Of a stretch of DNA of 64,000 nt, positions 19,131 through 61,093 are shown piece by piece (positions within the stretch are counted from its first letter, which is position 1; each line of letters starts with the position of its first letter). The position numbers and the translations under genes are program-made. The DNA is from Saccharomonospora cyanea NA-134. GTDB taxonomy: Bacteria > Actinomycetota > Actinomycetes > Mycobacteriales > Pseudonocardiaceae. The notes under the pieces are model-generated. The model saw only the letters and a program-made list of their open reading frames with translations, had not been told where the DNA came from and made no database searches. The DNA is taken from positions 1,539,538-1,603,537 of the forward strand of contig NZ_CM001440.1 of NCBI RefSeq assembly GCF_000244975.1, given 5' to 3'.

Positions 19131-19193
19131 GTGTCCGCAGGCTGCGCACGCGTGTCCGCACTTCTTGTAGGCGTGTCCGCGGCCTGCGCACGG
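19131..19193 (+). repeat. Tandem 21-bp 3'-end repeat, group A (3 units)
   Basis: Three contiguous 21-bp units (19131-19151, 19152-19172, 19173-19193), each starting GTGTCCGC and ending in a GCACGC/GTAGGC-like half. They start 11 nt after the CoxG-like stop, read in the sense of that gene and are preceded by GACATC. Same family as groups at 21345, 46819, 46886, 47613 and 61052. Confidence 0.85.
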
Positions 19194-19236
19194 CGAACTC
19201 GGGAAGGCGGCCGCCTGTCGCGGCGTTGCACCGGAC

Positions 19237-20310
19237 ATGCGAGCTGACCATGAAACCGACGTCGTCGTCATCGGCGCCGGACAGGCGGGGCTGTCGTCCG
19301 CGTACTTCCTGCACCGTGCCGGTCTGCGCGGCGGCGCCGGGTTCGTGGTGCTCGACCACGGCAAGCGGGCAGGTGGCGCGTGGCAGTACCGCTGGCCGAC
19401 GCTGCGGATGGACCGGGTCCACGGCGTTCACGACCTGCCGGGACTACGGCTCGTCGAGGTCCCCGGGAGCGGGAACCCGGCCCGCCCCGCAGCCGAGGTC
19501 ATGGCCGCCTACTTCGAGGAGTACGAGCGTGCGTTCGATCTGCCCGTGCACCGTCCGGTGAGCGTGCGTGCCGTGCGGCGGACATCCGACGGCCGGTTCC
19601 TCGTGGACACGGCGGGCGAGACGTGGTCGGCGCGCGGCGTCGTCAACGCGACGGGAACGTGGGACAAGCCGTTCTGGCCGTACTACCCGGGCCGGGAGAC
19701 GTTCCGCGGCAGGCAACTGCACACCGCCGACTACACCGGGCCTGCACCGTTCGCGGGGGCTCACGTGGTGGTGGTCGGTGGCGGCACGTCGGCGGTGCAG
19801 CTGCTCGTCGAGATCGCGGAGGTCGCCGAAGGCACCACCTGGGTCACCCGGCGCCCCCCGGTCTTCCACGAGGGCGAGTTCACACCGGAGCACGGGCGTG
19901 AGGTCGTCGCGGAGGTCGACCGGCGGGTCCGGTCCGGGAGGCCGCCGGGCAGCGTCGTGGGGGCGACCGGGTTGACGTTGACTCCCGAGGTGCGCGCCGC
20001 CCGGGAGGCCGGGCTGTTGGTGCGGCGGCCGATGTTCGAGCGGATCACGCCGCACGGTGTGCGCTGGGCGGACGGTCGGCAGCAACGTGCCGATGTGATC
20101 CTGTGGGCGACGGGTTTCCGCCCGGCGTTGGACCACCTGGCACCGCTGCGGCTACGCGGGGCAGGTAGCGGTATCCGGATGGACGGCACGCGGGTGGTGG
20201 GCGTGCCGCGGTTGCGTCTCGTGGGATACGGGCCCTCGGCGAGCACCGTGGGTGCGAGCCGGGCCGGCCGGGAGGCAGTTCGTGGCCTCCTGGCCGAGCT
20301 CGGCCGATGA
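19237..20310 (+). CDS. FAD-dependent NAD(P)-binding oxidoreductase (flavin monooxygenase-like)
   Basis: 357 residues. FAD site VVVIGAGQAGLSSAYFL at residues 9-25; second Rossmann site VVVVGGGTSAVQLLVEIAE for NAD(P)H. ATGTWDKPFWP and LWATGFRPALDHL match the ATGxxxxP and ATG-type motifs of flavoprotein monooxygenases and thioredoxin-reductase-like oxidoreductases. Substrate unknown. It stands alone between the group A repeats and the AT-rich promoter of the next gene. No clear Shine-Dalgarno is visible before the ATG. Confidence 0.82.
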   Translation: MRADHETDVVVIGAGQAGLSSAYFLHRAGLRGGAGFVVLDHGKRAGGAWQYRWPTLRMDRVHGVHDLPGLRLVEVPGSGNPARPAAEVMAAYFEEYERAFDLPVHRPVSVRAVRRTSDGRFLVDTAGETWSARGVVNATGTWDKPFWPYYPGRETFRGRQLHTADYTGPAPFAGAHVVVVGGGTSAVQLLVEIAEVAEGTTWVTRRPPVFHEGEFTPEHGREVVAEVDRRVRSGRPPGSVVGATGLTLTPEVRAAREAGLLVRRPMFERITPHGVRWADGRQQRADVILWATGFRPALDHLAPLRLRGAGSGIRMDGTRVVGVPRLRLVGYGPSASTVGASRAGREAVRGLLAELGR

Positions 20311-20376
20311 CGGTGTGGTGCGGCGGTGGGCGTGTCACATTGTCGACGTGGTTATCAATTCGAAATGGATTCCGCC

Positions 20377-21344: not shown

Positions 21345-21365
21345 GCGTACGGGAACCGCGGACAC
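21345..21365 (-). repeat. 21-bp 3'-end repeat, group B (1 unit)
   Basis: One unit, GTGTCCGCG then GTTCCCGTACGC on the minus strand, starting 4 nt after the multicopper oxidase stop and in its sense direction. It is one base different from the third unit of group D. Confidence 0.8.
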
Positions 21366-21369: not shown

Positions 21370-22902
21370 TCAGCGCACCTCGAAGTTGGCCATCATCATC
21401 ATGTCCTCGTGTTCCAGGTTGTGGCAGTGGAACACGTACCGGCCGCGATAGCCGTCGAACCGCAGCAGGATCTCCGCCTCGCCACCGTTGTCGAGGTCCA
21501 CGGTGTCCTTCCAGCCCGAGGTGGTCGGTCCGCCGCCCAGCACCTGGAACGGTGCGAGATGGACATGGATCGGATGTGGCACGTTCTGTGCTCTGATCCG
21601 CCAGAGCTCCACCGAACCCAGTTCCGGGTCGGCGTCGATGCGTCTGGGATCGAACGCCTGCCCGTTGACGGTCCACAGCGTCATGCCGTGGTGCTGGGCG
21701 CCGCCACGGGCGAAGACGAACTCCCGTTCGACACGTGCCTGCGATCGCGACAAAGGCTCCACCTCGGCCAGCGTGCGTGGCACCCGGCTGTCGTCCCGCG
21801 CCCGCCGGGTGACGACGAACCGGAGCACGGCGCGCGTGCCGCTCTCGCCCAGGGTGTTGACGAGTGTGATCCGCTGTCCCGGCCGGTACGCGGAGAAGTC
21901 CACCACCACGTCGAACCGTTCGGCCTGCGCGATCGGCAGCTCCTCGTGGAGCACCGGCGAGGCGAGCAACCCCTGGTCGCCGCCCACCTGCGTGAAGGCG
22001 GCCCCGCCGGGAGGGGGAGGGTCGAGCGCCAGGCGGTAGCGCCGGGCGTTCGAGGCGTTGAGCAGCCGGAAGCGGTACCGCACGGCCTCAACCTCCAGGA
22101 AGGGCCACGGCACGCCGTTCACCAGCACGCAGTCGCCCAGGACTCCGCTGGCGAAGTCGTCGGTCACCCCGGGTTCGCCGCGCAACGAGGGATCGCGCGC
22201 CGGGTAGTCGAAGGAGCCGTCCTCGGCGAAGGCGCGGTCGGCGATGAGCAGCGGGATGTCGCGCTCGCCCGAGGGGAGCCCGAGCCGGTCCTCCTCGTCG
22301 TCGTGCAGGAGGTGGAACCCGGCGAGCCCGCGGTACACCTGCGGGCCGGTGAAGTCCATGCGGTGGTCGTGATACCAGAGCGTGGCGGCGGGCTGATCCA
22401 GCGGGTAGACGTACTCGCGTCGCGCGCCGGGCTGCATCAGGTCGGTCGGGTAACCGTCGTGTTCGGGAGGGGTCCGGCCGCCGTGCAGGTGCACCACCGT
22501 CGGCACGGGCAGCTCGTTGCGGTGCCGCACCACCGTGCGCCGCCCGCGCCGTGACACGATCGTGGGTCCGGGGAACCGCCCGTCGTAGCCCCACACCCGG
22601 GTGTGCAGACCCGGCAGGATCTCCAGGTCGGACTCCCGCTGGGTGAGCTCGTAGTAATCGGTGGTGGCGTCGGACGACGACGGCCGCAGTACTTCGGGGA
22701 CGCTCAGCGGCAGCGTGAACGGTTCGGGCAGCCGGGCACGCGACCGCAGCACGGCACCCGCGCTCGACTCGGTCGTCACGTTGGGGCCACCGGACACGGA
22801 CAGTGAGAGTCCGGGTCCGGAACATGCCGACGACAGCGGCAGCGCCGCCAATCCGCCCGCGGCCAGCCGCAACGCCGTCCGCCGTGACATGCCCGCGTTC
22901 AC
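21370..22902 (-). CDS. Secreted multicopper oxidase
   Basis: 510 residues from GTG 22902, overlapping the preceding stop by 4 nt. A twin-arginine signal (SRRTALRLAAGG) runs into LPLSSACSG, a possible lipobox, so the enzyme is exported folded and perhaps lipid-anchored. All four copper clusters are visible: VVHLHGG, LWYHDHRMDF, HPIHVHLAPFQ and FHCHNLEHEDMM. The Met-rich end MMMM after the last His may help bind Cu(I). Three cupredoxin domains of the CotA/CueO/PhsA type; likely an oxidase of phenols, bilirubin-like compounds or cuprous ion. Confidence 0.9.
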   Translation of the reverse strand: MNAGMSRRTALRLAAGGLAALPLSSACSGPGLSLSVSGGPNVTTESSAGAVLRSRARLPEPFTLPLSVPEVLRPSSSDATTDYYELTQRESDLEILPGLHTRVWGYDGRFPGPTIVSRRGRRTVVRHRNELPVPTVVHLHGGRTPPEHDGYPTDLMQPGARREYVYPLDQPAATLWYHDHRMDFTGPQVYRGLAGFHLLHDDEEDRLGLPSGERDIPLLIADRAFAEDGSFDYPARDPSLRGEPGVTDDFASGVLGDCVLVNGVPWPFLEVEAVRYRFRLLNASNARRYRLALDPPPPGGAAFTQVGGDQGLLASPVLHEELPIAQAERFDVVVDFSAYRPGQRITLVNTLGESGTRAVLRFVVTRRARDDSRVPRTLAEVEPLSRSQARVEREFVFARGGAQHHGMTLWTVNGQAFDPRRIDADPELGSVELWRIRAQNVPHPIHVHLAPFQVLGGGPTTSGWKDTVDLDNGGEAEILLRFDGYRGRYVFHCHNLEHEDMMMMANFEVR

Positions 22903-25741: not shown

Positions 25742-26302
25742 ATGGCAATCCGTAGAGGTGCAGTTGTCACTGCGATCGCGATCGGCGCCGCGCTGGCCGT
25801 TTCCGGCACCACCAACGCTTCCACCGACGAGGACTGCGCCACCGGTATCTCCGTGCAGTCGCTGTCCGACACCGAGTGCGCCGAGTACGACTTCGTCAGC
25901 AGCGGCGAGGAGTGGGACAAGGAGCACGACAAGGGTCACGACGGTGACCACGGCAAGGACTGGGAGCACGACAAGGGTCACGACGGTGACCACGGCAAGG
26001 ACTGGGAGCACGACAAGGGTCACGACGGTGACCACGGCAAGGACTGGGACCACGGCAAGGACTGGGACCACGGCAAGGACCACGGCCACGACAAGGACTG
26101 GGACCACGGCAAGGACTGGGACCACGGCAAGGACCACGGCCACGACAAGGACTGGGACCACGGCAAGGACCACGACAAGGACAGGCACCACGACAAGGGC
26201 AAGCACCACGACAAGGACCGCAAGCACCACAAGAAGCAGGTCCACAAGAAGCCGCACGGTGGTGTCGAGACCGGTGACGGGTCGCTGGCGGCCCTGCTCT
26301 GA
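25742..26302 (+). CDS. Secreted His/Asp/Lys-rich repeat protein
   Basis: 186 residues. A Sec signal peptide (about 1-26, AIAIGAALAVSGTTNAS) is followed by a short region with two Cys, then about 110 residues made of GDHGKDW/DHGKDW/EHDKGH repeats, a basic H/K stretch, and the tail GGVETGDGSLAALL. The repeat is strongly charged and His-rich, suited to binding divalent metal or anionic polymers. The VETGDG tail resembles short sorting-like motifs next to class F sortases, but lacks the hydrophobic helix and positive tail of a full LPxTG signal. The sortase gene starts 11 nt after its stop. Confidence 0.8.
   Translation: MAIRRGAVVTAIAIGAALAVSGTTNASTDEDCATGISVQSLSDTECAEYDFVSSGEEWDKEHDKGHDGDHGKDWEHDKGHDGDHGKDWEHDKGHDGDHGKDWDHGKDWDHGKDHGHDKDWDHGKDWDHGKDHGHDKDWDHGKDHDKDRHHDKGKHHDKDRKHHKKQVHKKPHGGVETGDGSLAALL
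25922..26155 (+). repeat. In-frame coding repeats, 3 x 42 bp plus 2 x 54 bp
   Basis: Three perfect 42-bp copies start at 25922, 25964 and 26006; two perfect 54-bp copies start at 26048 and 26102. All keep the reading frame. Exact DNA identity, including third positions, points to recent slippage or recombination. Confidence 0.9.
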
Positions 26303-45534: not shown

Positions 45535-45535
45535 C

Positions 45536-47675: not shown

Positions 47676-47683
47676 GATGTCGG

Positions 47684-49225: not shown

Positions 49226-49275
49226 CTGACCTCCTGTGTTGCGTCGTGGTCTCTGGTCTCGACCACGCACAACCG

Positions 49276-49290
49276 CTTAGGGACCCTAAG
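49276..49290. promoter_or_regulatory. Operator-like palindrome upstream of the MFS exporter
   Basis: CTTAGGG, one base, CCCTAAG: a perfect 15-bp dyad 51 nt upstream of the GTG start. TTAGG-type dyads are common for MarR family repressors of efflux pumps. No MarR gene is in the window. Confidence 0.45.
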
Positions 49291-49457
49291 TGTTCCGCGG
49301 CAGATGTGATGTTGTCGAGTTCCGGGCGAATCGGGACAAGGCGGTCAGTGCGTCGACGCCGGTGCGGCGGGTCCGGCGACAACGGGTGGGGCACTCCCGC
49401 CCCCGGGCTGTCCGCGCCGTCCACGGTCGGCGGTGTGTCGCGTACCGGCGCCCGTGG

Positions 49458-49745
<288 letters not shown>

Positions 49746-49874
49746 TCACTTTCTGCGTGATGCGTGGCGGGCGTCCAGCACGGCACGGTCCGCACCGCCC
49801 GCCCAGAAGTCGGCGAGGACGATGCCGGGGATCGTCGGCATGAAGTCCTCATCGGTGAGGTCGAATGTGGCCAT
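49746..49874 (-). pseudogene. Truncated thioredoxin remnant
   Basis: A 42-codon frame whose first 25 residues, MATFDLTDEDFMPTI then GIVLADFWA, match the start of a thioredoxin up to the DFWA that normally precedes the WCGPC active site. After DFWA the sequence turns to GGADRAVLDARHASRRK and stops, with no CGPC. It therefore has no redox activity. It is in operon order between the TauE exporter and the repressor, whose possible GTG start follows its stop directly. Best read as the decayed head of a thioredoxin gene, perhaps kept because its translation leads into the repressor. Confidence 0.65.
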
Positions 49875-49914
49875 CTGGGTTCCGTCCCTTCCAACGGGGA
49901 AGGATGTCACGCCG

Positions 49915-50787
49915 CTACCGCGGTTGTGGGCGCGGCACGAGGGGGCAGCGCACTGAGGTCAGGCGGCAGACGGCGACCAGGCAGGAGAGCACCGTCGCGG
50001 CGACCACGACCACGAGACCGGCCGGGGACGGGAGCTCCTGGCTCAGCACGAAGACGCCCATGACGAGTACGAAGAAGCCGAAACCCTTCCTCAACGCCAC
50101 CTCCGGCACCCGGGAGGTCAGAAGCGTGCCGAGCAGCGATCCGACGACGGCCGCGGCGGTGACTCCGACGACCAGGGACCAGTCGAGGCTGACCGTGGTG
50201 AGGTAGCCGGCGAGGCCCGAGAAGGACTTCATCCCTATCACCACCAGCGAGGTACCCACCGCGACCGGCATGGACAGGCCGCCGAGCAGCACGAGCGCGG
50301 GGACGACGAGGAAGCCGCCACCGGCACCGACGAGTCCGGTGACAAGGCCGACGGCGAGCCCGTCGAGGATGACCCGTTTCAGTGGAAGCCCCTGCGGTCC
50401 TCCGCTGGCATCGGCGGTGGTTTTCTTCTTCCCCCGGATCATCGCCACGGCGGTGGCCACCATCATGACGGCGAAAGCGATCATCAGGACGGTGTCCGGA
50501 AGGTACCCGCCGGCAAGCCCTCCCGCGAAGGCGCCCACCATGCCCGCCGCTCCGAAGACGAGCCCGGTGCGCCAGCGGACGTTGCCCTTCCTGGCGTGCG
50601 CGACCGCGCTGATCAGTGAGGTCGTTCCCACCACGAACAGCGACGCGGCGATGGCTTCCTTGGCTCCCATGCCCGCGACATAGGTGAGTAGAGGGACGGT
50701 CAGGATGGAACCCCCGCCTCCGAGCAGCCCGAGCGAGAGGCCCACGGCCACGGCGAGAACCAGAACGATGATCAGGCCGGTCTCCAT
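49915..50787 (-). CDS. TauE/SafE-family sulfite or sulfur-compound exporter
   Basis: 290 residues, about eight membrane helices. The family repeat appears twice: LGLLGGGGSILTVPLLTYVAG near the N-terminus (split here by family convention) and GLVGAGGGFLVVPALVLL at about 160. SD GGGGAGGAAAG precedes the ATG. In persulfide-detoxification operons this family exports sulfite or thiosulfate made by the dioxygenase and rhodanese. Confidence 0.87.
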   Translation of the reverse strand: METGLIIVLVLAVAVGLSLGLLGGGGSILTVPLLTYVAGMGAKEAIAASLFVVGTTSLISAVAHARKGNVRWRTGLVFGAAGMVGAFAGGLAGGYLPDTVLMIAFAVMMVATAVAMIRGKKKTTADASGGPQGLPLKRVILDGLAVGLVTGLVGAGGGFLVVPALVLLGGLSMPVAVGTSLVVIGMKSFSGLAGYLTTVSLDWSLVVGVTAAAVVGSLLGTLLTSRVPEVALRKGFGFFVLVMGVFVLSQELPSPAGLVVVVAATVLSCLVAVCRLTSVRCPLVPRPQPR

Positions 50788-50897
50788 CTTTCCTCCCCGT
50801 TACGGTGCCCGGGTCCCGGTGACCCGCTCATCGGGATTGCCACGGCAGCCGTCTCGCCGCCTCGTCGGTGCCGGTGTCACACGGCATGGTGAACGCC

Positions 50898-51482
50898 TCA
50901 GTCCTTCCGGAGCGCCGTCGGGAGGTTGCAGACGGCCTCCTCCAGCGTGGGGTTCGCGGCCGTCCTGTTCCACGGCATCTTCGCCAGTACCGCCGCCATG
51001 CCACAGGAGTTGGTCAGCGCCGAGAACGTCAGCCCGCCACCGATCGCGGCGGACAGGTAGCCCAGCCGGGGATCGATCAGTCTGGACCCGAGGAAGCCGA
51101 GCAGCACCAGGGAGCCCGCTGCCATGCGGACCTGGCGCTCCATGGCCCAGCGCCGGGCGCCACGGACCACGTCGCCTCCGGCCGACTCGAAGGCGGAGAC
51201 ACCACCGGTGAGCACGTCGGCGTTGTCGAAGCCCACCGCTGTCAGCCGTTGCTGGGCCTGGGCGGCCCGGGCTCCGGACTGGCAGACGAGCACCACGTTG
51301 CCACCGAGGCGTTCGGCGAGGTCACGGGTGTTCTCGGAGAGCAGCTGCAGCGGGATGTTGTGGGACCCGGGAATGTGGGTCGAGCGGAACTCGGCCGGTG
51401 TGCGTACGTCGATGATCGTGAGTTCGTCGCCCTCGGCGATTCGTTGTTTCAACGTGGGTGCGTCGATGACGGTCTTGTCCAT
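50898..51482 (-). CDS. Rhodanese-DUF2892 fusion
   Basis: 194 residues from ATG 51482. Residues about 5-105 form a rhodanese domain with active Cys in LVCQSGARAAQA. The C-terminal part (about 125-185) has two membrane helices of the DUF2892 type (MAAGSLVLLGFLG; LSAAIGGGLTFSAL) and an NSCGMAAVLAKMPW segment with another Cys. It would handle persulfide sulfur at the membrane. It lies 138 nt after the dioxygenase gene in the same operon. Confidence 0.86.
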   Translation of the reverse strand: MDKTVIDAPTLKQRIAEGDELTIIDVRTPAEFRSTHIPGSHNIPLQLLSENTRDLAERLGGNVVLVCQSGARAAQAQQRLTAVGFDNADVLTGGVSAFESAGGDVVRGARRWAMERQVRMAAGSLVLLGFLGSRLIDPRLGYLSAAIGGGLTFSALTNSCGMAAVLAKMPWNRTAANPTLEEAVCNLPTALRKD

Positions 51483-51620
51483 GTGTCGTCTCCGGTCGAG
51501 GTGATCAGTGGTGGTCGGCGGTGGTCGCCGGCTTTTCCGGACCGGCGTTCGGCGAACCGGTCGGCAGCCGGCGGCCACCGGGAGGGGAAGTGGTGCCGAA
51601 TCGGGTCGCGACCAGCCGGA

Positions 51621-53051
51621 TCAGGCTCCCGCGGCTGCGGACTCGGCGCGGTCGGCGCCGTGCCGGGCCTCGTTCCAGGCCGTCCAGCCCGCGTAGCTGC
51701 CGTCGAGTTCGACGACGTCGTAGCCCGCCCGGCGCAGGGCGCTGGCGGCCACCGAGTTGCGCACCCCGCCCTGGCAGTAGGTCACGATGGTGCCGTTCGT
51801 GGGCAGCTCGTCGCGGTGCCAGAGCAGGCGTCCCGCGCTGAGTTGCTTGGAACCGGGGATGTGTCCGGCGGCGTGTTCGGTCCTGTTCCGAACATCCAGG
51901 ACGAGCGCGGCGCCGGAGCGCTCCAGATCGGCGGGTGCGACGAGCGCGGGCCGGGTGCTCGGCAGGCCTTCGAGGCTGGTGGTGTAGCCGGCGACGTGGT
52001 CGATGCCGACGCGCAGGAGGTGGTCCCGCACGGCCCGTGCCGTGTCCCCGTCGGGCGCCAGCAACACGAGCGGTGTGCTCTCGGTTTCGGGGTCGTACGC
52101 CCAGGCGCCGAAACTCGCGGCCTTGGCGGGTCCGGGGATGTTCAGTGCACCCCGCACGGTGCCCTCGTGCACCTCGGTGTGGGGACGGGTGTCGACGAAC
52201 ACCGACTCGTTCGCGTCGAGCGACCGGGCGATCTCGTCGTTGCCCAGCTCCGGCAGCGGCGGCAGGGACCCCAGGATCCGCGGCCCTTCCCTGTTCTGGC
52301 GCTTCATCCGGGCGAAGTACGCGTGGGCGTCCGGTTGCCCGTCGAGCAGCGCCTCGACGAAGCCCTGCTCGTCGTTGTCGCGCAGATACGGGGCCCACCA
52401 GGCGTTGAGGCGTTCGTAGCCGACCGTGGTCGAGGGCAGGGCGCCCAGGGCCTTGCCACACGCGCTGCCCGCCCCGTGCGCGGGGTAGACCTGCACGTGG
52501 TCGGGAAGCGTCAGGAAGGTGTCACGGAGGCTCGCGAACAGCTGGCGGGCACCCTCGAAGCGGGTGTCCACCGCGCCGGCCGCCTCGTCGAGCAGGTCGG
52601 GGCGGCCGAGGTCGCCCGCGAAGACGAAGTCCCCGGAGAGCAGGTACCCCGGCTCGTCGCTGAACGCGCCGTCGGTGACCAGGAACGAGAGGTGCTCGGG
52701 TGTGTGCCCCGGGGTGTGGCTGGCCCGCACCGTGATGTTGCCGACGGTGATGGTGTCACCATCGTGCAGGCGGGTGGCGTCGAAGCCGTACTGCCAGTCC
52801 TGCCCGCCTTCCCCCGAGACGTACACCTGCGCTCCGGTCGCCGCGCCCAGCTCTCGGGTGCCGGAGAGGTAGTCGGCGTGGATGTGCGTCTCCGTCACCG
52901 CCACGATCCGCATCCCGTGCCGCTGCGCCAGGTCGAGGTACTCGCGGACGTCGCGGCGAGGATCGACCACGACGGCCTCCCCCTTCGCCTGGCAGCCGAT
53001 GAAGTAGCTGGCCTGGGCGAGGTCCTCGTCGTAAATGCGTTCGAGCAACAT
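51621..53051 (-). CDS. Persulfide dioxygenase-rhodanese fusion (CstB-like)
   Basis: 476 residues from ATG 53051 behind GAGGGAGA. N-terminal metallo-beta-lactamase domain with iron ligands in THIHADYLSG, GHTPEHLSF and SGDFVFAGDLGRPDL, the ETHE1 type. It is followed by a first rhodanese-like domain lacking a clear active Cys (about 250-360) and a C-terminal rhodanese with Cys in IVTYCQGGVRNSVA. CstB-type enzymes oxidise low-molecular-weight persulfides to sulfite and then to thiosulfate. First gene of the reverse operon; the CsoR-type operator lies 44 nt upstream. Confidence 0.9.
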   Translation of the reverse strand: MLLERIYDEDLAQASYFIGCQAKGEAVVVDPRRDVREYLDLAQRHGMRIVAVTETHIHADYLSGTRELGAATGAQVYVSGEGGQDWQYGFDATRLHDGDTITVGNITVRASHTPGHTPEHLSFLVTDGAFSDEPGYLLSGDFVFAGDLGRPDLLDEAAGAVDTRFEGARQLFASLRDTFLTLPDHVQVYPAHGAGSACGKALGALPSTTVGYERLNAWWAPYLRDNDEQGFVEALLDGQPDAHAYFARMKRQNREGPRILGSLPPLPELGNDEIARSLDANESVFVDTRPHTEVHEGTVRGALNIPGPAKAASFGAWAYDPETESTPLVLLAPDGDTARAVRDHLLRVGIDHVAGYTTSLEGLPSTRPALVAPADLERSGAALVLDVRNRTEHAAGHIPGSKQLSAGRLLWHRDELPTNGTIVTYCQGGVRNSVAASALRRAGYDVVELDGSYAGWTAWNEARHGADRAESAAAGA

Positions 53052-53094
53052 GGCGTCTCCCTCTTCGTGTCCGGGTACCTCTCCACTCTGGCAT

Positions 53095-53110
53095 ATACCC
53101 CCCCGGGTAT
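53095..53110. promoter_or_regulatory. CsoR/CstR-type operator
   Basis: ATACCC (53095-53100), four C, GGGTAT (53105-53110): the 16-bp TACCC-N4-GGGTA dyad recognised by CsoR-family repressors, just upstream of the persulfide dioxygenase gene. It links that gene to the repressor at the far end of the operon. Confidence 0.75.
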
Positions 53111-53229
53111 TCAAGTTCGCTGGTCGGAGGGGGTGTGCCATGGTCTCGTGCCGGATTCGGGACGCCGTCGGCCGACGTGGCCGTGACGGCGACCACGCCG
53201 GGCGGATCGGCGAGGTCACCGTGGGCGGG

Positions 53230-53257
53230 AACCGCCGCGGCCTTGACCGCGGTGGTT
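53230..53257 (-). terminator. Terminator hairpin after the helical-repeat-like gene
   Basis: AACCGCCGCGG (53230-53240) pairs with CCGCGGTGGTT (53247-53257), an 11-bp stem with one G-T pair and a 6-nt loop. It starts 10 nt past the stop of the minus-strand gene at 53268. Confidence 0.5.
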
Positions 53258-53267
53258 TCCGGACGGC

Positions 53268-53921
53268 TCAGGCCAAGGCGGTCAGTGCGTCGCGCAGGAT
53301 TCCCTGTGCCGGGACGGACAACCGCCGTCCGGCGTGCAGCTGGTGCGCCGCCTCGACGAGCCGTTGCCGGTCGGCGGCGGTGCCCGTGTGACCGAGGAAC
53401 GCCGGCAGCAGCAGGGCCAGCGACCGCAGGTCGCGGTCCTCGCAGAGCACGGCCAGCAGGTCCGCCACCCTCTCCTCGCCGGGGCTTCGGACGAGGACGC
53501 CGGTGTCTCGCAGCCCCTCGGCCACGACGTAGCGGAGCCAGTCGGCGTACGAGCCCGGAGGCAGCGCGTCGAGATGGTCGGCGGCGAGGCGGAAATGAGT
53601 CCCGGCCTTCTCGATGTCGCCCAGCTCGCGGTGACAGCGGGCGAGGCACGCGTGCAGCGACGGGTAGAACGCGGCGACCCTGGCGTCGGCCACGGCGTCG
53701 GCGCGCTCCAGGCACACCTCGTTCCAGCTCAGTTCGTCGGCGACCGTCGGTTGGTGACGGGCGAGGTAGTGCGCGGCGACGCATGCCTCGTAGTCGTCGC
53801 TCGCCCGCTCCCAGGCCTGTTCGAACAGCGTCTTCGCGTCGCCGGACCGACCTTCGACCTCGGCCCGCATTCCCTCGGAACACAGGCGAATGACGGGGTT
53901 CTCGGGGTCCAGGGGGGCCAC
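53268..53921 (-). CDS. Hypothetical helical-repeat (TPR-like) protein
   Basis: 217 residues from GTG 53921 (GAAGGGAAG upstream; an internal ATG is possible). All-helical: SGDAKTLFEQAWERASDDYE, YPSLHACLARCHRELGDIEKAGTHFRLAADHL look like tetratricopeptide units. No catalytic motif. It starts 14 nt after the MerR fusion gene stop, so it is probably co-transcribed with it. A scaffold or adaptor role is likely; the partner is unknown. Confidence 0.72.
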   Translation of the reverse strand: MAPLDPENPVIRLCSEGMRAEVEGRSGDAKTLFEQAWERASDDYEACVAAHYLARHQPTVADELSWNEVCLERADAVADARVAAFYPSLHACLARCHRELGDIEKAGTHFRLAADHLDALPPGSYADWLRYVVAEGLRDTGVLVRSPGEERVADLLAVLCEDRDLRSLALLLPAFLGHTGTAADRQRLVEAAHQLHAGRRLSVPAQGILRDALTALA

Positions 53922-53935
53922 TGTGGTTCTTCCCT

Positions 53936-54973
53936 TCACTGGTCCATGCGGACGGGCATGACGAGCGTCGTGAAACTGCCCTGGTCGGCGGAGCGGACCA
54001 CCGTCGGCTGGTCGGCCGCGGTGATCTCCAGCAGTACGTCGGGGCCGACCCCGGCGGCCACGGCGGGCGCGAGCACGGCGGGATCGAACGCCAGGCGGGC
54101 GGTGCCCGAGCACACGGCGGACACGGTGGCATCGCCCACGTGCACCGTGTCCCCACCGGTCTCCAGCACGACCGGGTTCCCGGCAGCGGCCAGCGCGTCG
54201 AGCAGCGCGGTCCGGGTGGTGACGATCCGGCAGGTGTGCGGGGCCAGGGTGTCGAGCACCCGGCGGTAATCGGGATAGTTCCCGTCTCGTGTGGGCAGTG
54301 GCACTTCGCCCGTGGCCGCGTCGTCCCCGGGGTGGTCCGCCACCAGTGAGGCGTCGTCAGCCTCGGCGACCAGCCGCACGGCGTCGTGGCGCACGGCCCA
54401 CGGCAGTGCGGCCACCATCGCGTCGACCGGGACCAGCAGCCGGTTCGGCGGCCCGACGACGCGGTGGGGGACGAGTTCCCGCACCGCGAGGCGGTAGCGG
54501 TCGGTGGCCACGAGCCGCAGCACTTCGGTGGTCCACTCGACGAGCACACACCCGAGTTCCGGGACCTCGGGAGTGCGGGCCGCGGCCGGATGTACCTGGC
54601 GGATCGCGCTGGCGAGTTCCGCTCCGCCGACGCTCACCTCGCCGTGGGACGGCTGCTCCACCATCCGCAGAGCGGCCTCCACCGCGGCGTGGGCCGTGTC
54701 GGCGCGGGACCGCAGCCGCCGGGCGTGCGCCGTCAGCACCTCGCGTGCGGAGGCCGGATCGCCTGCGAGCACGGCGGTGATGTCGGCGAGCGGCACCTCG
54801 GCCTGCCGGAGGGCGCGCAGCAACGCGGCATCGCGTTCCTGGTCCGCGCTGTAGTAGCGGTAGCCGGAGTCCGGGTCCACGTGCGCGGGCCGCAGGACGC
54901 CGCAGTCGTCGTAGAAGCGCAGCGCGCTCGGAGTGAGCCCGACGCGTCGCGCGAAGGTACTGATCGTGTCCAT
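53936..54973 (-). CDS. MerR regulator fused to a DNA polymerase III beta-clamp-like domain
   Basis: 345 residues from ATG 54973. Residues 1-70 are a MerR helix-turn-helix (ISTFARRVGLTPSALRFYDDCGVL, DSGYRYYSADQ), 70-110 a dimerisation helix. From about 115 the chain resembles sliding-clamp modules (LRLVATDRYRLAVRELV, RDGNYPDYRRVLDTL). The combination is known in actinobacteria, but its role is not. Clamp domains normally ring DNA as a dimer of three-domain chains; with about two modules plus a DNA-binding head this chain may dimerise into a ring-like regulator. TTGACC and a dyad precede it at 54981-55011. Confidence 0.82.
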   Translation of the reverse strand: MDTISTFARRVGLTPSALRFYDDCGVLRPAHVDPDSGYRYYSADQERDAALLRALRQAEVPLADITAVLAGDPASAREVLTAHARRLRSRADTAHAAVEAALRMVEQPSHGEVSVGGAELASAIRQVHPAAARTPEVPELGCVLVEWTTEVLRLVATDRYRLAVRELVPHRVVGPPNRLLVPVDAMVAALPWAVRHDAVRLVAEADDASLVADHPGDDAATGEVPLPTRDGNYPDYRRVLDTLAPHTCRIVTTRTALLDALAAAGNPVVLETGGDTVHVGDATVSAVCSGTARLAFDPAVLAPAVAAGVGPDVLLEITAADQPTVVRSADQGSFTTLVMPVRMDQ

Positions 54974-54980
54974 GGCGCCG

Positions 54981-55011
54981 AGTCTGGGGCTTCGAGCGAC
55001 TCGAAGGTCAA
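54981..55011 (-). promoter_or_regulatory. MerR-type promoter with 19-bp spacer and dyad
   Basis: Reading the minus strand: TTGACC (55011-55006), 19-nt spacer, CAGACT (54986-54981). The spacer holds the perfect dyad CTTCGAG-3-CTCGAAG (54990-55006). Long spacers with a central dyad are the mark of MerR-controlled promoters. The -10 is 7 nt from the MerR ATG with no Shine-Dalgarno, so that message is probably leaderless. On the plus strand TAGGAT (55015-55020) could serve the divergent lactate monooxygenase gene. Confidence 0.6.
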
Positions 55012-55057
55012 CCGTAGGATGCCCGGCGAGTCGGCGGCACGGCGCGAGGAGGCGCGG

Positions 55058-56221
55058 ATGAGCGAGCGGTTCGGTCACTACCAGAGCGAGATCTACCTTT
55101 CCGGTTACGGCGGCACGACACCGGCGTTCACCACGGACCTCACCCGGCTGGAGGCGGTCGCCGAGCGGGTGCTGGAACCGGGGCCGTTCGCCTACGTCGC
55201 CGGGGGAGCGGGGTCGGGTGCGACGAGTCGCGCCAACCGGGAGGCGTTCGACCGCTGGGCCCTCGTGCCGCGCATGCTCACCGACGCCACCGAGCGCGAG
55301 CTGGCCACCACGGTGCTGGGTGAGACGCTGCCCGCACCCGTGGTGCTCGCGCCGGTGGGTGTGCAGTCGATCGTGCACCCCGAGGCCGAGCGGGCCACCG
55401 CGAAGGCGGCTGCCGGGCTCGGGCTGCCGATGGTGATGTCCACCGCCTCCTCGACGAGCATCGAGGACGTCGCGTCCGCGTCCGGACCCGGGCCGCGCTG
55501 GTTCCAGCTGTACTGGCCGAACGACCCCGACGTGTGCGGCAGCATCCTCGCGAGGGTGCGAGCCGCCGGGTTCTCCGTACTGGTGGTCACGCTCGACACG
55601 TGGTCGCTCGGCTGGCGGCCGTGCGACCTCGACAACGGCTACCTGCCGTTTCTGAAGGGTGAGGGGACGGCCGTGCCGTTCACCGACCCGGTGTTCCGTT
55701 CACGGCTCGAATCCGCCCCGGATGAGGACCTCGCGATGGCCGTGCTGCGCTGGATCTCGATGATCACCGGGACGGACCGTGACTGGGACGCCCTGCCGTT
55801 CCTGCGGGAACACTGGGACGGTCCGATCGTGCTGAAGGGTATCCAGCACGTCGACGACGCCCGTCGGGCGGCGGCTGCCGGGGTCGACGGCATCGTGGTG
55901 TCGAACCACGGCGGACGGCAGGTCGACGGCGCCGTCGCGTCGCTGGACATGCTGCCCGAGATCGCCACGGCTGTGGGCGACCGGCTCGACGTGCTGTTCG
56001 ACTCGGGGGTCCGCACGGGCGCCGACGTGGTGAAGGCCCTCGCGCTGGGTGCGAAGGCCGTGCTCGTGGGACGCCCGTACGTCTACGGGCTGGCCCTCGG
56101 GGGCGAGGACGGCGTGCGGCACGTGCTGCGGAGCCTGCTCGCCGACCTCGACCTCACGCTGGCGCTGTCCGGCCACCGCGGTGTGCGCGAACTCGGACCC
56201 GGGTCACTCGTACGGCGCTGA
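55058..56221 (+). CDS. Lactate 2-monooxygenase-like FMN enzyme
   Basis: 387 residues from ATG 55058 behind AGGAGG. FMN-dependent alpha-hydroxy-acid oxidase barrel: PFAYVAGGAGSGATSRAN, VVLAPVGVQSIVHPEAE, catalytic His in VSNHGGRQVDGAVASLD, and DSGVRTGADVVKALALGAK. The length and the HPEAERATAKAA stretch favour lactate 2-monooxygenase (lactate plus O2 to acetate, CO2 and water) over lactate dehydrogenase. It may also be an oxidase of another 2-hydroxy acid. Divergent from the MerR fusion. Confidence 0.84.
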   Translation: MSERFGHYQSEIYLSGYGGTTPAFTTDLTRLEAVAERVLEPGPFAYVAGGAGSGATSRANREAFDRWALVPRMLTDATERELATTVLGETLPAPVVLAPVGVQSIVHPEAERATAKAAAGLGLPMVMSTASSTSIEDVASASGPGPRWFQLYWPNDPDVCGSILARVRAAGFSVLVVTLDTWSLGWRPCDLDNGYLPFLKGEGTAVPFTDPVFRSRLESAPDEDLAMAVLRWISMITGTDRDWDALPFLREHWDGPIVLKGIQHVDDARRAAAAGVDGIVVSNHGGRQVDGAVASLDMLPEIATAVGDRLDVLFDSGVRTGADVVKALALGAKAVLVGRPYVYGLALGGEDGVRHVLRSLLADLDLTLALSGHRGVRELGPGSLVRR

Positions 56222-56224
56222 GGC

Positions 56225-56965
56225 TCACATGGACGTCTGCGGCAGGCCCGGGCCCTTGCGAGGACCGACGAGGGCGCCCACCACGGTCAGCAGACAGCCT
56301 GCGAGCAACACCCACGGACCCGCGGAGGATGCCTCGAAGTCGCCCTTGAAGATGTAGGCGATCCCCATGCCGTGGAGCACCGTGGCCGCGAACGCCCGGC
56401 CCGCGAACACGACGCGGTACTTGACGAACGTCCGACGGCTGAGGTTGTTGCGGAGGATGCCGCTCAACCAGCGGGCCGACCTGTCGGTGCGCAGTGCGCC
56501 GAGAGTCCACGGCAGGACGGCCAGCGGCAGCACGGCGAGCAGTACGAAGGACAGGCACACGACGTAGAGCGGACGCAGGTCCATCTCCCAGTCCGTGGCC
56601 TCCCAGAGATCCAGGAACCACACCGAGTTACCCATGGCGCTCGCCCACGGCAGGGCGAACATCCCGACGAATGTCATGACGACGCCGAGCGCGGCGGGTA
56701 GCGCGCCCCAGCCCGCGACCGTCAGCGGGCCACCGGGCACGGGTCCGGGCGCACCGAAGCCCGGGCCCATGCCGGGCGCGGCGCCACCCGGGTACGGCTG
56801 CTGTGGGTAGGCGGGCGGATGTCCCGGGAACTGCTGCGGGTGGCCGGTGGGTTGGGAGGGATAGCCCGCTGGTTGCGACGGATACGGCGCCTGTCCGGGA
56901 TGTCCTTGTTGTGGCTGTCGGTATGGTTGTTGTCCCGCCGGATTCCCCGGCCACGGCTGCCCCAT
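56225..56965 (-). CDS. Pro/Gln-rich membrane protein
   Basis: 246 residues from ATG 56965. The first 90 are low-complexity Pro/Gln/Gly/Tyr (QQPYRQPQQGHPGQ, YPSQPTGHPQQ), a cytoplasmic disordered tail. Then about four membrane helices (ALPAALGVVMTFVGMFALPW; PLYVVCLSFVLLAVLPLAVLPW; a third near AFAATVLHGMGIAYIF; WVLLAGCLLTVVGALVG). Unknown family. Converges on the lactate monooxygenase gene with 3 nt between stops. Confidence 0.75.
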   Translation of the reverse strand: MGQPWPGNPAGQQPYRQPQQGHPGQAPYPSQPAGYPSQPTGHPQQFPGHPPAYPQQPYPGGAAPGMGPGFGAPGPVPGGPLTVAGWGALPAALGVVMTFVGMFALPWASAMGNSVWFLDLWEATDWEMDLRPLYVVCLSFVLLAVLPLAVLPWTLGALRTDRSARWLSGILRNNLSRRTFVKYRVVFAGRAFAATVLHGMGIAYIFKGDFEASSAGPWVLLAGCLLTVVGALVGPRKGPGLPQTSM

Positions 56966-57150
56966 GGCGTCGCACCCTACCGGCCGGACCCCGCCGAGCG
57001 AAGCGGAACGGACCGACGAACGGCTCCGCGAACTCGCCCGCCGTTTCCCACCGCCGCGCACCGGTGAGGCGCGATCGGTGGGAACACCGGTGTGCTCCCC
57101 GGAAAACAGGTGGCCTCGGTGCGAGGGCGGCCGGTTAAGCTGGCTGCCGT

Positions 57151-60100
57151 ATGTCCTCCACGTCTACTCCACAGGTTGCTGTCGGCGAGCTGCGTTCCCG
57201 CCTGTCCGAGCTCATGGTGCGCGACGCGCACCGGTTGGGTCGTCGGCTCGACGGGTTGCGCAGGGCTCGCCGGCCGAAGCAGGGCGTCCTGGCGGGCATC
57301 GCCGCGGACGTGGAGCGGGCCGAGGAACGCGTTCGTCGGCGCCGCGAGTCACGGCCCGAGATCACCTACCCGGACGAACTGCCGGTCAGCAGGCGCAAGG
57401 ACGACCTCGCCGAGGTGATCCGCGACAACCAGGTGGTGATCGTCGCGGGGGAGACGGGGTCGGGCAAGACCACGCAGTTGCCCAAGATCTGCCTCGAACT
57501 GGGCCTGGGCGTGCGGGGGCAGATCGGGCACACCCAGCCGCGCAGGATCGCGGCCAGGACCGTGGCCGAGCGCATCGCGGCGGAGCTGGGGACCGACCTC
57601 GGGACGAGCGTCGGCTACAAGGTGCGGTTCACCGACACCTCGGGCGACGACACGCTGGTCAAGGTGATGACCGACGGCATCCTGCTCGCCGAGATCCAGC
57701 ACGACCGGCTGCTGCGGCAGTACGACACGATCATCATCGACGAGGCTCACGAGCGGAGCCTGAACATCGACTTCCTGCTCGGCTACCTCAAGCGGGTCCT
57801 GCCGCGCAGGCCCGACCTCAAGGTGATCATCACCTCGGCCACCATCGACCCGGAGCGGTTCTCGCGGCACTTCGACGATGCCCCGATCGTGGAGGTCTCC
57901 GGCCGCACCTACCCGGTGGAGGTGCGCTACCGGCCCGTCGTCGACCCCGACGACCCCGGCGCCGACCCCGATCGCGACCAGGTGCAGGCCATCTGCGACG
58001 CCGTCACCGAACTCAGCGCGGAGGGGCCCGGCGACATCCTGGTGTTCCTCTCCGGGGAACGTGAGATCCGGGACACCGACGAGGCGCTGACGGCGATGGA
58101 GCTGCCGAACACCGAGATCCTGCCGCTGTACGCGCGGTTGTCCGCAGCCGACCAGCACCGTGTGTTCAGACCGCACCGGGGACGGCGCATCGTGCTCGCC
58201 ACCAACGTGGCGGAGACGTCGCTGACCGTGCCGGGAATCAAGTACGTCATCGACCCCGGCACCGCCCGCATCTCCCGCTACAGCCATCGCACCAAGGTGC
58301 AACGGCTGCCCATCGAACCGATCTCGCAGGCGTCGGCAAACCAGCGCAAGGGGCGCTGTGGCCGCACCTCGGACGGTGTCTGTATCCGCCTGTACTCCGA
58401 GGACGACTTCCTCTCGCGGCCCGAGTTCACCGACCCCGAGATCCTGCGGACCAACCTGGCCTCGGTGATCCTGCAGATGATCTCCTTGGGGCTGGGTGAC
58501 ATCGGCGCGTTCCCCTTCGTGGAGCCGCCCGACCGCAGGCAGATCACGGCCGGGGTGCAGTTGCTCACGGAGCTGGGAGCGCTCGACGCGTCCGGCAAGA
58601 CGTTGACGCCGGTCGGGCGCAAACTCGCGCAGCTTCCCGTGGACCCCCGCATGGGGCGGATGATCGTGGAGGCCGCCTCGCTCGGCTGCGTGCGCGAGGT
58701 CATGATCATCGCGGCGGCACTGTCCATCCAGGACCCGCGCGAGCGGCCCTCGGAGAAGCAGCAGCACGCCGACCAGCTGCACGCGCGGTTCGCCGACCCC
58801 AACTCCGACTTCCTCGCCTACCTCAACCTCTGGAACTACGTCCGCGAGCAGCAGAAGGCACTGTCGAACAACCAGTTCCGCAAGCTCTGCCGCGCCGAGT
58901 ACCTCAACTACCTCCGCATCCGCGAGTGGCAGGACATCCACGGGCAGCTCCGTCAGATGGCCAAGCCGCTCGGCATCACGTTCAACGACGTGCCCGCCGA
59001 CTCGCAGCGGGTCCACACCGCGCTGCTGGCGGGACTGCTGTCCCACGTCGGGCTCAAGGATCCGGCCAAGGGCGACTACCTGGGAGCCCGAGGCGCCCGC
59101 TTCGCCGTGTTCCCCGGCTCGTCGCTGTTCAAGAAGCAGCCGAGGTGGGTCGCGTCGGCGGAGCTCGTGGAGACCTCGCGACTGTGGGCGCGGGTCAACG
59201 CCCGGGTGGAACCCGAGTGGATCGAGCCGTTGGCCCAGCACCTGGTGAAGCGCACGTACTCCGAGCCGCACTGGGAACGCAAGCGCGGTGCGGTCATGGC
59301 CCTTGAGCGGGTGACGCTGTACGGCATCCCGCTCGTGGTGGGCCGAAAGGTCAACTACGGCCGCATCGACCCCGAGACCTCGCGGGAGCTGTTCATCCGT
59401 CACGCCCTCGTGGAGGGCGACTGGGACACGAACCACCGCTTCTTCCACGACAACCGCGCGCTTCTCGAGGAGGTCACCGACCTCGAGAACCGCGCGAGGC
59501 GACGCGACCTGCTCGTCGACGACGAGACGCTGTTCGACTTCTACGACCAGCGGATCGGGGCCGAGGTCACCTCGGCACGGCACTTCGACACGTGGTGGAA
59601 GAAGACCCGTGGGGAGCAGCCGGAGCTGCTCAACTTCGAGAAGGCCATGCTCGTCAACGAGGCTGCCGACGACGTGCGCGAGGCCGACTACCCCGACACC
59701 TGGCAGCAGGGTTCCCTGACGTTCAAGCTGACCTACCAGTTCGAGCCGGGGACCGACGAGGACGGCGTCACCGTCCACATTCCCCTCGCAGTGCTGAACC
59801 AGGTCGGTCCCGCCGGATTCGAATGGCAGGTTCCCGGCCTTCGCGAGGAGCTCGTCACCGCGTTGATCAAGTCGTTGCCGAAGCCACTGCGGCGCAACCT
59901 GGTGCCCGCGCCCGACACCGCGCGGCAGGTCCTGGCGGCAGCCGGACCCGCGGACGGTCCGCTGCTGCAGGTCCTGGGACGGGAGCTGGAACGGTTGCGC
60001 GGCGTGGACGTGCCGGCCGACGCGTGGCAATGGTCCGCCGTACCCGACCACCTCAAGATGACGTTCCGGGTGCTCGACGAGCGCGGACGGAAGCTCGCCG

Positions 60101-61047
60101 AGGGCAAGGACCTGGAGGCGTTGCGCGACCGGCTCGGCGATCGCCTGCGCAAGACCATCTCCGCCGCCGCCGACGACATGGAGCGGTCGGGGCTTCGCAC
60201 CCCGGACTTCGGTTCCCTGCCGAAGGAGTTCTCGGCCCGGCGGCGCGGGCACGAGGTGAAGGCCTATCCCGCGCTGGTCGACGAGGGCGACAGTGTGGCT
60301 GTGCGGATGCTCGACACGCCGGGGCAGCAGCGCGCGGAGATGTGGCGCGGCACGCGCAAGCTGTTGCGGCTCAACGTCCCCTCGCCCGCCAAGTACGTCA
60401 ACCGGAACCTGTCGAACCAGTCGAAGCTGGTGCTGACCCGCAACCCCCACGGTGGGGTGGCGGCTCTGGTCGACGACTGCGTCGACTGCGCGGTCGACAA
60501 GCTGATGGCCGACGCTGGCGGCCCGGCGTGGGACGAGCGGGGGTTCGCGCCGCTGCTGGAGCGGGTGCGGGGGGCGCTGAACGGCACAGTGCTCAACGTG
60601 TTGCGTGCCGTGGAGGACGTCCTGCGCGCGGCGCACGACGTCGAGGCGCGGTTGCAGGCCACGCGCGGTGACGCCCTCGCCGAATCGCTCGACGACATCC
60701 GCGCGCATCTGTCCGGACTCGTCCACGCCGGGTTCGTCACCGAGACCGGCTACGACCGGCTCGGCGACCTCGTGCGCTACGTCCGGGGGATAGAACGCAG
60801 GCTCGACAAGCTGCCCTCGGACCCGGCGCGGGACGTCGAGCGACTGCGCGACATCGCGTGGTTGCGGCAGGAGTACCGGGCGGCGCTGGACGCGTTGCCG
60901 CCGAGGACGGATCCAAGTCCGGAGCTGGCCGAGATCCCGTGGATGATCGAGGAGCTGCGGGTGAGCTTCTTCGCCCAGACCCTCGGCACGGCCTACCCGG
61001 TGTCGCTCAAGCGTGTCCTCAAGGCCCTGGACGCCGCGGCGCCGTAA
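57151..61047 (+). CDS. hrpA: ATP-dependent RNA helicase HrpA
   Basis: 1298 residues, full length for bacterial HrpA. DEAH-box core in the first third: Walker A AGETGSGKTTQLPKI, IIIDEAHERSLNIDF, SATIDPERFSRHF, QRKGRCGRTSDGV. HA2 and OB-fold domains follow, then the large C-terminal DUF3418 region (YQFEPGTDEDGVTVHIPL). It unwinds or remodels structured mRNA and ribosomal RNA. TAAGCT (57136-57141) lies 9 nt before the ATG without a Shine-Dalgarno, suggesting a leaderless message. Confidence 0.95.
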   Translation: MSSTSTPQVAVGELRSRLSELMVRDAHRLGRRLDGLRRARRPKQGVLAGIAADVERAEERVRRRRESRPEITYPDELPVSRRKDDLAEVIRDNQVVIVAGETGSGKTTQLPKICLELGLGVRGQIGHTQPRRIAARTVAERIAAELGTDLGTSVGYKVRFTDTSGDDTLVKVMTDGILLAEIQHDRLLRQYDTIIIDEAHERSLNIDFLLGYLKRVLPRRPDLKVIITSATIDPERFSRHFDDAPIVEVSGRTYPVEVRYRPVVDPDDPGADPDRDQVQAICDAVTELSAEGPGDILVFLSGEREIRDTDEALTAMELPNTEILPLYARLSAADQHRVFRPHRGRRIVLATNVAETSLTVPGIKYVIDPGTARISRYSHRTKVQRLPIEPISQASANQRKGRCGRTSDGVCIRLYSEDDFLSRPEFTDPEILRTNLASVILQMISLGLGDIGAFPFVEPPDRRQITAGVQLLTELGALDASGKTLTPVGRKLAQLPVDPRMGRMIVEAASLGCVREVMIIAAALSIQDPRERPSEKQQHADQLHARFADPNSDFLAYLNLWNYVREQQKALSNNQFRKLCRAEYLNYLRIREWQDIHGQLRQMAKPLGITFNDVPADSQRVHTALLAGLLSHVGLKDPAKGDYLGARGARFAVFPGSSLFKKQPRWVASAELVETSRLWARVNARVEPEWIEPLAQHLVKRTYSEPHWERKRGAVMALERVTLYGIPLVVGRKVNYGRIDPETSRELFIRHALVEGDWDTNHRFFHDNRALLEEVTDLENRARRRDLLVDDETLFDFYDQRIGAEVTSARHFDTWWKKTRGEQPELLNFEKAMLVNEAADDVREADYPDTWQQGSLTFKLTYQFEPGTDEDGVTVHIPLAVLNQVGPAGFEWQVPGLREELVTALIKSLPKPLRRNLVPAPDTARQVLAAAGPADGPLLQVLGRELERLRGVDVPADAWQWSAVPDHLKMTFRVLDERGRKLAEGKDLEALRDRLGDRLRKTISAAADDMERSGLRTPDFGSLPKEFSARRRGHEVKAYPALVDEGDSVAVRMLDTPGQQRAEMWRGTRKLLRLNVPSPAKYVNRNLSNQSKLVLTRNPHGGVAALVDDCVDCAVDKLMADAGGPAWDERGFAPLLERVRGALNGTVLNVLRAVEDVLRAAHDVEARLQATRGDALAESLDDIRAHLSGLVHAGFVTETGYDRLGDLVRYVRGIERRLDKLPSDPARDVERLRDIAWLRQEYRAALDALPPRTDPSPELAEIPWMIEELRVSFFAQTLGTAYPVSLKRVLKALDAAAP

Positions 61048-61051
61048 CGCC

Positions 61052-61093
61052 GTGTCCGCAGCCTGCGTACGCGTGTCCGCATTTCCTGCACGC
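61052..61093 (+). repeat. Tandem 21-bp 3'-end repeat, group E (2 units)
   Basis: Units 61052-61072 and 61073-61093, starting 4 nt after the hrpA TAA, in hrpA's sense, in the gap to the convergent polymerase gene. Confidence 0.85.

Follow-up and report, generated by a model that had tools for sequence, protein, structure and literature searches.

The DNA stretch analysed here, referred to as the window, comprises 64,000 nucleotides of the soil bacterium Saccharomonospora cyanea NA-134 (contig NZ_CM001440.1, positions 1,539,538 to 1,603,537), and it carries a family of 21-bp repeat units, mostly in tandem, that stand behind stop codons and read in the sense of the gene that has just ended. Thirteen units of the form GTGTCCGC-N13 were found in six groups, all of them where the initial annotation of the sequence had placed them. 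Every group begins 4 to 11 nt past a stop codon in the sense of that gene (11, 4, 11, 4, 8, and 4 nt in the order given below), as had been claimed for the window. Gene names are taken from Pfam, except for hrpA, which is carried over from the initial annotation and whose product is a DEAH-type helicase with DUF3418 according to Pfam. The 73-aa gene (47684-47905, minus strand) has no Pfam match. The groups and the genes that precede them are the following.

19131-19193, plus strand: array of three units, 11 nt past the stop of a CoxG-like gene (18340-19119, plus strand), with the lead-in GACATC
21345-21365, minus strand: single unit, 4 nt past the stop of a multicopper oxidase gene (21370-22797, minus strand), with the lead-in TGACACC
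46819-46860, plus strand: array of two units, 11 nt past the stop of glyA (45536-46807, plus strand)
46861-46885, no strand: 25-nt centre between two convergent arrays (the commonest centre in the genome is 26 nt)
46886-46927, minus strand: array of two units, 4 nt past the stop of an O-methyltransferase gene (46932-47594, minus strand), with the lead-in TGACATC
47613-47675, minus strand: array of three units, 8 nt past the stop of the 73-aa gene (47684-47905, minus strand)
61052-61093, plus strand: array of two units, 4 nt past the stop of hrpA (57214-61047, plus strand)

The host genes are functionally unrelated by Pfam, in line with what had been proposed, while the lead-in GACATC, said to occur often, is found at three of the six groups. 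The 8-mer GTGTCCGC, which forms the head of the unit, occurs 17 times in the window, where approximately 10 are expected by chance. Four of these occurrences are not units: those at 21087, 23331, and 37979 lie inside called genes, and that at 54124 (minus strand) lies in a gap of the gene calls. Since such single 8-mers arise by chance, what counts is how the heads are phased and placed, and exact head-N13-head pairs number seven in the window versus none in 40 Markov-simulated windows.

A search of the whole S. cyanea genome (one contig, 5,408,301 bases) revealed 109 exact tandem pairs (46 + 63) versus none with the reversed-pattern control, which shows that the family is real. Placement was studied in a sample of 754,344 bases, made up of the surroundings of 100 of the 109 pairs, 18 arbitrary 20-kb stretches, and the window; this sample is array-enriched, since it was mostly chosen round exact pairs. 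Genes were called with our own gene caller, trained on S. cyanea codons and applied to the other genomes too. A position weight matrix built on the pairs detected 220 units at a score of at least 12, compared with two in the reversed sequence. These units form 127 groups, eight of which lie within called genes and are mostly low-scoring singles. For the 119 groups outside called genes, the nearest upstream edge is a sense stop in 87 cases and a gene start in 32; five of the latter can be rescued by weaker open reading frames (ORFs), and several are the second arms of inverted pairs. The sense stop is at most 14 nt away in 53 of the 119 groups, versus 3.5% for random intergenic placement and 13 groups when the orientation is flipped, and it is exactly 4 nt away in 21 of them (0.24% at random, one group when flipped). 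Arrays are held by 37 of 84 convergent gaps, 36 of 214 codirectional gaps, and 7 of 112 divergent gaps of the array-enriched sample. It is clear that neither placement nor orientation is random: sense placement behind stops is far above chance, and the arrays often face each other between convergent genes. The stop-proximal rule is strong, yet not absolute. The assertion that units always follow a stop codon in sense is therefore upheld as a tendency but not as a rule, given that about a quarter of the groups do not comply.

The junction at exactly 4 nt has the context CTGAC, with a TGA stop in 19 of 20 genes, C as the next base in 18 of 20, and C as the previous base in 19 of 20, where the backgrounds are 86%, 44%, and 46%, respectively. 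An array stands at +4 of CTGAC in 17 of 104 stop contexts versus 4 of 147 non-stop intergenic occurrences (p = 2.7e-4), indicating that the motif by itself does not position the arrays. Four arrays of S. cyanea, at 652276, 655861, 659326, and 662868 (loci L016-L019), follow one another in steps of approximately 3.5 kb, and the last three have both their first unit and their hairpin-like lead-in in common, as if gene and array had been duplicated together.

The consensus of the S. cyanea unit is GTGTCCGC-A-(G/C)-N-Y-Y-N-Y-G-Y-A-C-G-C. Heads were found by exact patterns and their conservation is partly built in, whereas the middle and tail positions are free of this effect, except for G20 and C21 of the units of genome G006, which are partly fixed by the pattern used to fetch them. 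The exact 21-bp phase is borne out genome-wide, with 120 of 131 neighbouring heads no more than 60 nt apart being spaced by 21 nt; in G006 the spacing is 21 nt in 76 and 22 nt in 20 of 100 cases. A second head (at least 6 of 8 matches) is found at +21 in 111 of the 119 groups, most stretches having been chosen by such pairs, a third at +42 in 37, and a head at -21 in only two. In the 72 groups of at least two units the first unit is mostly of the TG type (44/72) and the last is TTCC-like (41/72), and the base at position -1 of the units is C in 97%. The middle segments vary on one pattern; they are not unrelated spacers, and clustered regularly interspaced short palindromic repeats (CRISPR) were discarded for this reason. 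The available part of a published report gives 0 CRISPR repeats for S. cyanea (PMC3910552).

Arrays also form inverted pairs. The sample contains 29 convergent pairs, with a gap of exactly 26 nt in ten, 25 nt in two, and 4 nt in three, and the 26-nt centre is a palindromic turn of approximately GTGTYCGC-N10-GCGGACAC. Six pairs are head-to-head, five of them with gaps of 14-15 nt and several with similar cores. In genome G160, arrays with the head GCGAGTY, described below, stand head-to-head with 7-9 bp between them (C20:10663-10830, C24:80991-81137, C35:53278-53383, C35:67922-68047, and C79:47664-47770), an arrangement opposite to the tail-to-tail pairs of S. cyanea.

Comparison with relatives indicates that gene ends can keep an array while its sequence changes. 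At least one exact sense GTGTCCGC unit stands behind glyA, and at least one behind the 73-aa gene, in all seven unit-bearing congeners, and units stand behind hrpA in all six whose contig extends that far; just one of the heads is exact in G009 and G010 at glyA and in G002 at the 73-aa gene. In G002 (L220) and G005 (L222) the glyA stop is separated from the array by a long GC hairpin, recognised by eye, so that the array there comes after a terminator-like stem.

Matching DNA of S. cyanea and its relative G001 is mostly 88-92% identical. Among 101 orthologous genes, with arrays assigned to gene ends up to 150 nt away, heads are present at the end in both genomes for 15, in S. cyanea only for five, and in G001 only for three, two of which are soft (279046 is at the edge of the S. 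cyanea stretch, and behind 688611 the S. cyanea array is 213 nt away). The first units were compared at 12 of the 15 shared ends, and their middle segments differ at 3.6 of 13 positions versus 4.4 for shuffled pairs (p = 0.036); the three ends left out have identical arrays and fall where the matching DNA is 96% identical. The arrays at shared ends are mostly rewritten despite flanks that are about 90% identical. The hrpA array differs by one 21-bp step between the two genomes, and the one clean presence/absence is a 105-bp indel (5 x 21) with no visible target duplication. In G003, a called sense stop lies no more than 150 nt away at 21 of 30 arrays, and 6 of the 21 stand behind an ortholog of one of the 82 labelled S. 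cyanea array genes. For G006, which uses another dialect, the corresponding values are 25 of 35 and 4 of 25. The expected overlap is approximately 0.3-0.4 for each genome, assuming all 5,139 genes equal. Some gene ends retain an array from one species to another even though its sequence has been replaced.

The S. cyanea units are one lineage dialect of a non-coding tandem 21-mer family that is found in parts of the Pseudonocardiaceae. The region from glyA to hrpA was compared across 17 relatives, and the unit tails read GYACGC in S. cyanea and G003, GYAGCC in G009, mostly GYNGTC in G005, and GCACCC in G020, which belongs to another genus. G006, G007, and G008 have no GTGTCCGC units in this region; behind hrpA they carry a GCGAGTY tandem array in sense, with steps of 21 (19, 22, and 21 in G006). 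Pairs of GCGAGTTGCC-N11 number 216 in G006 and 0 in S. cyanea. When offset by two bases, the GTGTCCGC and GCGAGTY 21-mers have the common skeleton G16, Y17, C19, G20, C21. Among 249 genomes of the family, at least ten GTGTCCGC pairs are found only in eight Saccharomonospora, S. cyanea included, and in G020, G031, G062, and G092. GCGAGTY pairs number 95 to 493 in 18 of the 249 genomes. These 18 come from nine genera, and many of their congeners have 0-5 pairs; the reversed-pattern controls of this count are mostly 0-10, with 30-31 in G075 and G160. At most four GCGAGTY pairs per genome were counted over 118 genomes of the class (S. cyanea, otherwise other families).

The placement of the other dialect was sampled at 37 loci. 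These are the first few of each genome sampled, and they come from three congeners and from six genomes that belong to five other genera. A sense stop is the nearest upstream edge in 21 of 30 groups and lies within 14 nt in 15 of 30; for the five other genera alone the values are 14 of 20 and 10 of 20. A frequent junction is cTGACC(C) followed directly by GCGAGT, and the two groups of G160 do not come after a sense stop. Relative to the initial annotation, what is added is the arms of inverted pairs with their 26-nt turn, the dialects in parts of the family, the rewritten units at kept ends, and the patchy copy number.

Genome G175, with 75 GCGAGTY pairs, holds GTGTCCGC arrays at a single exotic locus (L349, 11384-14023), which was probably acquired together with its neighbouring genes. 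These genes resemble, by eye, an oxidoreductase and a Nudix protein, and nothing suggests that the locus encodes a trans-acting factor. In G030 (C1:400800-401100) four identical three-head GCGAGTC matches follow one another at exact 84-bp steps, forming a higher-order repeat. A further dialect was suspected from two loci where tandem repeats with a common GTCGAGATCA stand directly past a stop (L231 of G035, position 416, period 23; L125 of Micromonospora gifhornensis, position 2252, period 22), and it was dropped, given that it was found in 0 of 296 genomes. A viral origin was likewise set aside: pattern matches occur in 56 viral stretches, 55 of them single.

The initial annotation had also raised an RNA role in 3' untranslated regions, for which folding offers no help. 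Compared with dinucleotide shuffles, the 72 groups of at least two units show no gain in folding (mean z -0.08), arrays are not more stable in sense than in antisense, and single units are more stable in antisense (p = 8e-4). T-runs occur at 1 of 69 array ends, compared with about 29 of 271 other ends with 60 nt of room, the stretch being filled by the array itself; the arrays are thus unlike intrinsic terminators, in which a GC hairpin is followed by a T-run, and no terminator-like site was found at the four groups in 45000-62000. Rho loading sites were considered because some units are C-rich and set aside on the G005 units, which are not C-rich by eye. Translational read-through, raised since 21 is a multiple of three, was rejected as well, given that the stop-to-unit distances mix frames and some G009 units contain TAG. 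As for candidate spreaders, the Y1 transposase (PF01797) associated with repetitive extragenic palindromes (REPs), known as RAYT (REP-associated tyrosine transposase), has no match in S. cyanea or in 7 of 11 congeners. It is matched in G003, G004, G007, and G009, and the copies in G003 and G009 adjoin a TnpB-like ORF (by eye), with no array directly flanking. Reverse transcriptase has no match in S. cyanea or in 9 of 11 congeners. REPs driven by RAYT were rejected on the absent match in S. cyanea, and retro-copying was also discarded.

At gathering thresholds Rfam places the window arrays in no known family. Its only matches in the window are two adjacent glycine riboswitch aptamers (RF00504, 40896-41086, plus strand), an ordinary feature ahead of a run of genes (41199-46807) whose last member is glyA. 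The window also holds a long 18/36/54-bp tandem repeat at 25921-26233, mostly within the called gene 25742-26302 (plus strand), and its 18-mer is in frame with the called start of that gene and encodes DHGKDW.

The two-turn spacing, the presence of at least two heads, the sense orientation, the enrichment in convergent gaps, and the address that persists when the code word changes are best interpreted as the sites of a specific factor that acts at gene ends. Each 21-bp unit would be a docking site for a putative sequence-specific factor, and the spacing is compatible with a putative protein lying along one face of the DNA. This factor would more likely read double-stranded DNA than RNA, given the spacing of two helical turns and the lack of a conserved RNA fold. 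Sites in phase, at least two and beginning just past the stop, would then constitute a directional signal at the 3' end by which transcription is stopped or insulated, chiefly where genes converge, and dialects would arise as factor and sites change together. Our tentative proposal, to which we give somewhat less than even weight, is that the arrays serve as directional 3'-end sites for a sequence-specific factor that coevolves with them. A broader version appears unlikely as a whole: a lineage-coded 3'-end marking system in much of the family, with tandem 21-bp sites at a fixed short distance past the stop codon, a fast-evolving specificity factor, and one-directional ending or insulation of transcription, whose code word passed from GTGTCCGC to GCGAGTY with the addresses kept. 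Under this version the code word could change at kept addresses because the factor and hundreds of sites would be rewritten together.

Several observations weigh against factor sites at gene ends. In the 18 arbitrary 20-kb stretches a sense stop precedes 3 of 7 groups and is within 14 nt in only one of the seven, compared with six of six in the window, and the 32 of 119 groups mentioned above lack a sense stop as their nearest upstream edge. There is no called sense stop within 150 nt at 9 of 30 arrays of G003 and 10 of 35 of G006, and of the arrays that do have one, 15 of 21 and 21 of 25, respectively, have no S. cyanea counterpart within the stretches compared. If only some gene ends are permissive, the expected overlap for G006 is higher, and the figure for this genome is then weak. 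Hairpin strength and energy do not differ between array ends and other gene ends, and the similar 26- and 55-nt centres at several loci resemble copies of an element. Exact pairs number 0-4 versus 400-493 within single genera (g20 and g26), a swing that is odd for a needed signal.

The patchy copy number, the similar centres, the GTAG-like tails of G009, and the fast turnover are best read as those of a dispersing repeat. This would be a REP-like element without host function, spread by some recombination or copying process and surviving mainly past stops, where arrays would persist since they are least harmful there; its left end or its target would be CTGAC, from which the TGA would come. 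We consider this explanation level with the proposal of factor sites and just as tentative, and both can be true. The range of 0 to 493 exact pairs among relatives, with the extremes found inside g20 and g26, favours dispersal, as do the dispersed copies with similar 26- and 55-nt centres, the excess of CTGAC over backgrounds at the 4-nt junction, the changes of unit number and the rewriting between S. cyanea and G001, and the one exotic locus in G175. Furthermore, GTAG, the tag of one REP super-family, is found in the unit tails of G009 and in some tails of G002 and G005. Nonetheless, S. cyanea has no match to either Y1 transposase or reverse transcriptase, the single clean presence/absence site (the 105-bp indel) has no target duplication, and stop contexts are preferred over identical CTGAC elsewhere. 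In addition, avoidance of gene damage alone leaves the sense orientation and the persistence under a changed dialect unexplained.

RNA hairpins, where each unit would fold in the transcript and act as a weak tandem terminator or a barrier to 3' exonucleases, are improbable. The commonest unit can be drawn by eye as a 9-bp imperfect hairpin (9+3+9, with G-U pairs only in the sense strand), the 26-nt centre is palindromic, and some lead-ins look hairpin-like. However, the comparisons with shuffles and antisense given above (mean z -0.08; singles antisense-stable, p = 8e-4) are unsupportive, the first arm is nearly invariant, which is partly fixed by the search, and other dialects, on inspection, no longer show the pairing. 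Self-recognition tags similar to DNA uptake sequences (DUS), with dialects that follow the receptor and gene ends as landing places, are very improbable. The arrays recall the DUS of Neisseriaceae, as described in the available part of PMC3630211, in having dialects by lineage, many copies, and inverted pairs at the ends of genes; the tandem 21-bp phase, the stop-plus-4 register, and the few groups in coding sequence (8/127) do not fit, and intragenic positions of DUS are common according to the same part of that source.

Transcript ends in high-GC actinobacteria are poorly mapped. The arrays are a repeat class tied to stop codons by position, phase, and strand in several genera, and they suggest either a mechanism, so far unrecognised, by which genes are marked or ended, or a dispersing repeat of an unusual sort. 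Should the factor model hold, the arrays would be a directional 3'-end signal whose dialects coevolve, and they would offer an insulator part that is portable. They also bear on the spread of small intergenic repeats that have no RAYT-type transposase behind them. Since copies number in the hundreds in some related species and are almost absent from others, both function and spreading machinery can be tested through gene content and 3' ends.

No description of a stop-linked 21-bp class was found in the literature searched, where coverage of subscription papers was thin, so that its absence is unproven. The arrays resemble mycobacterial interspersed repetitive units (MIRUs) in being actinobacterial intergenic tandem repeats set in a fixed orientation relative to adjacent genes. 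MIRUs have a length of approximately 46-101 bp. They are thus longer, and they lie inside operons with a small ORF, whereas the arrays consist of 21-bp units at gene ends and often separate convergent genes. According to the available part of PMC12548453, MIRUs seem to be mobile elements whose insertion sites are start codons, with a -4 nt coupling. Insertion between translationally coupled genes is not what is seen for the arrays, which are most frequent in convergent gaps (37/84). With DUS, the arrays share a lineage-coded short motif and inverted pairs. DUS are 10-12 bp long, common inside genes, and not arranged in 21-bp tandem arrays, whereas only 8 of 127 array groups are in called genes. 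In Neisseriaceae, DUS are a lineage-coded short motif, often in inverted pairs linked to terminators (PMC3630211, available part). Prokaryotic satellites are similar in being tandem repeats in prokaryotic genomes, and Amycolatopsis mediterranei appears in a table of Subirana and Messeguer 2019; the available part of that paper describes no dispersed stop-tied 21-bp class (PMC6749651).

The closest likeness is to REPs and their composite forms, bacterial interspersed mosaic elements (BIMEs) and REP doublets forming hairpins (REPINs), which likewise number in the hundreds, are short and intergenic, and lie mostly downstream of genes, in convergent and codirectional gaps and with inverted pairs. 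The downstream location applies to the arrays as well (87 of 119 groups, with convergent gaps enriched), and REPs are likewise located downstream of genes and sometimes supply the stop codon, as reported in the available part of PMC3733652. The GTAG/CGTC tag of REPs is absent from the S. cyanea tail consensus GYACGC, while many G009 tails read GTAGCC and some in G002 and G005 contain GTAG, a comparison made by reading tails and not by statistics. A REP is a palindrome and is linked to RAYT; the array units have no favoured stem, although the centre between convergent arms is palindromic, and S. cyanea has no Y1 transposase match. By these stem and transposase tests, which concern the two features best tested, the arrays are not REPs, in agreement with the distinction from ordinary REPs drawn in the initial annotation. 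What sets the arrays further apart is that they are 21-bp direct tandem repeats in gene-sense orientation, with another dialect at the orthologous gene end.

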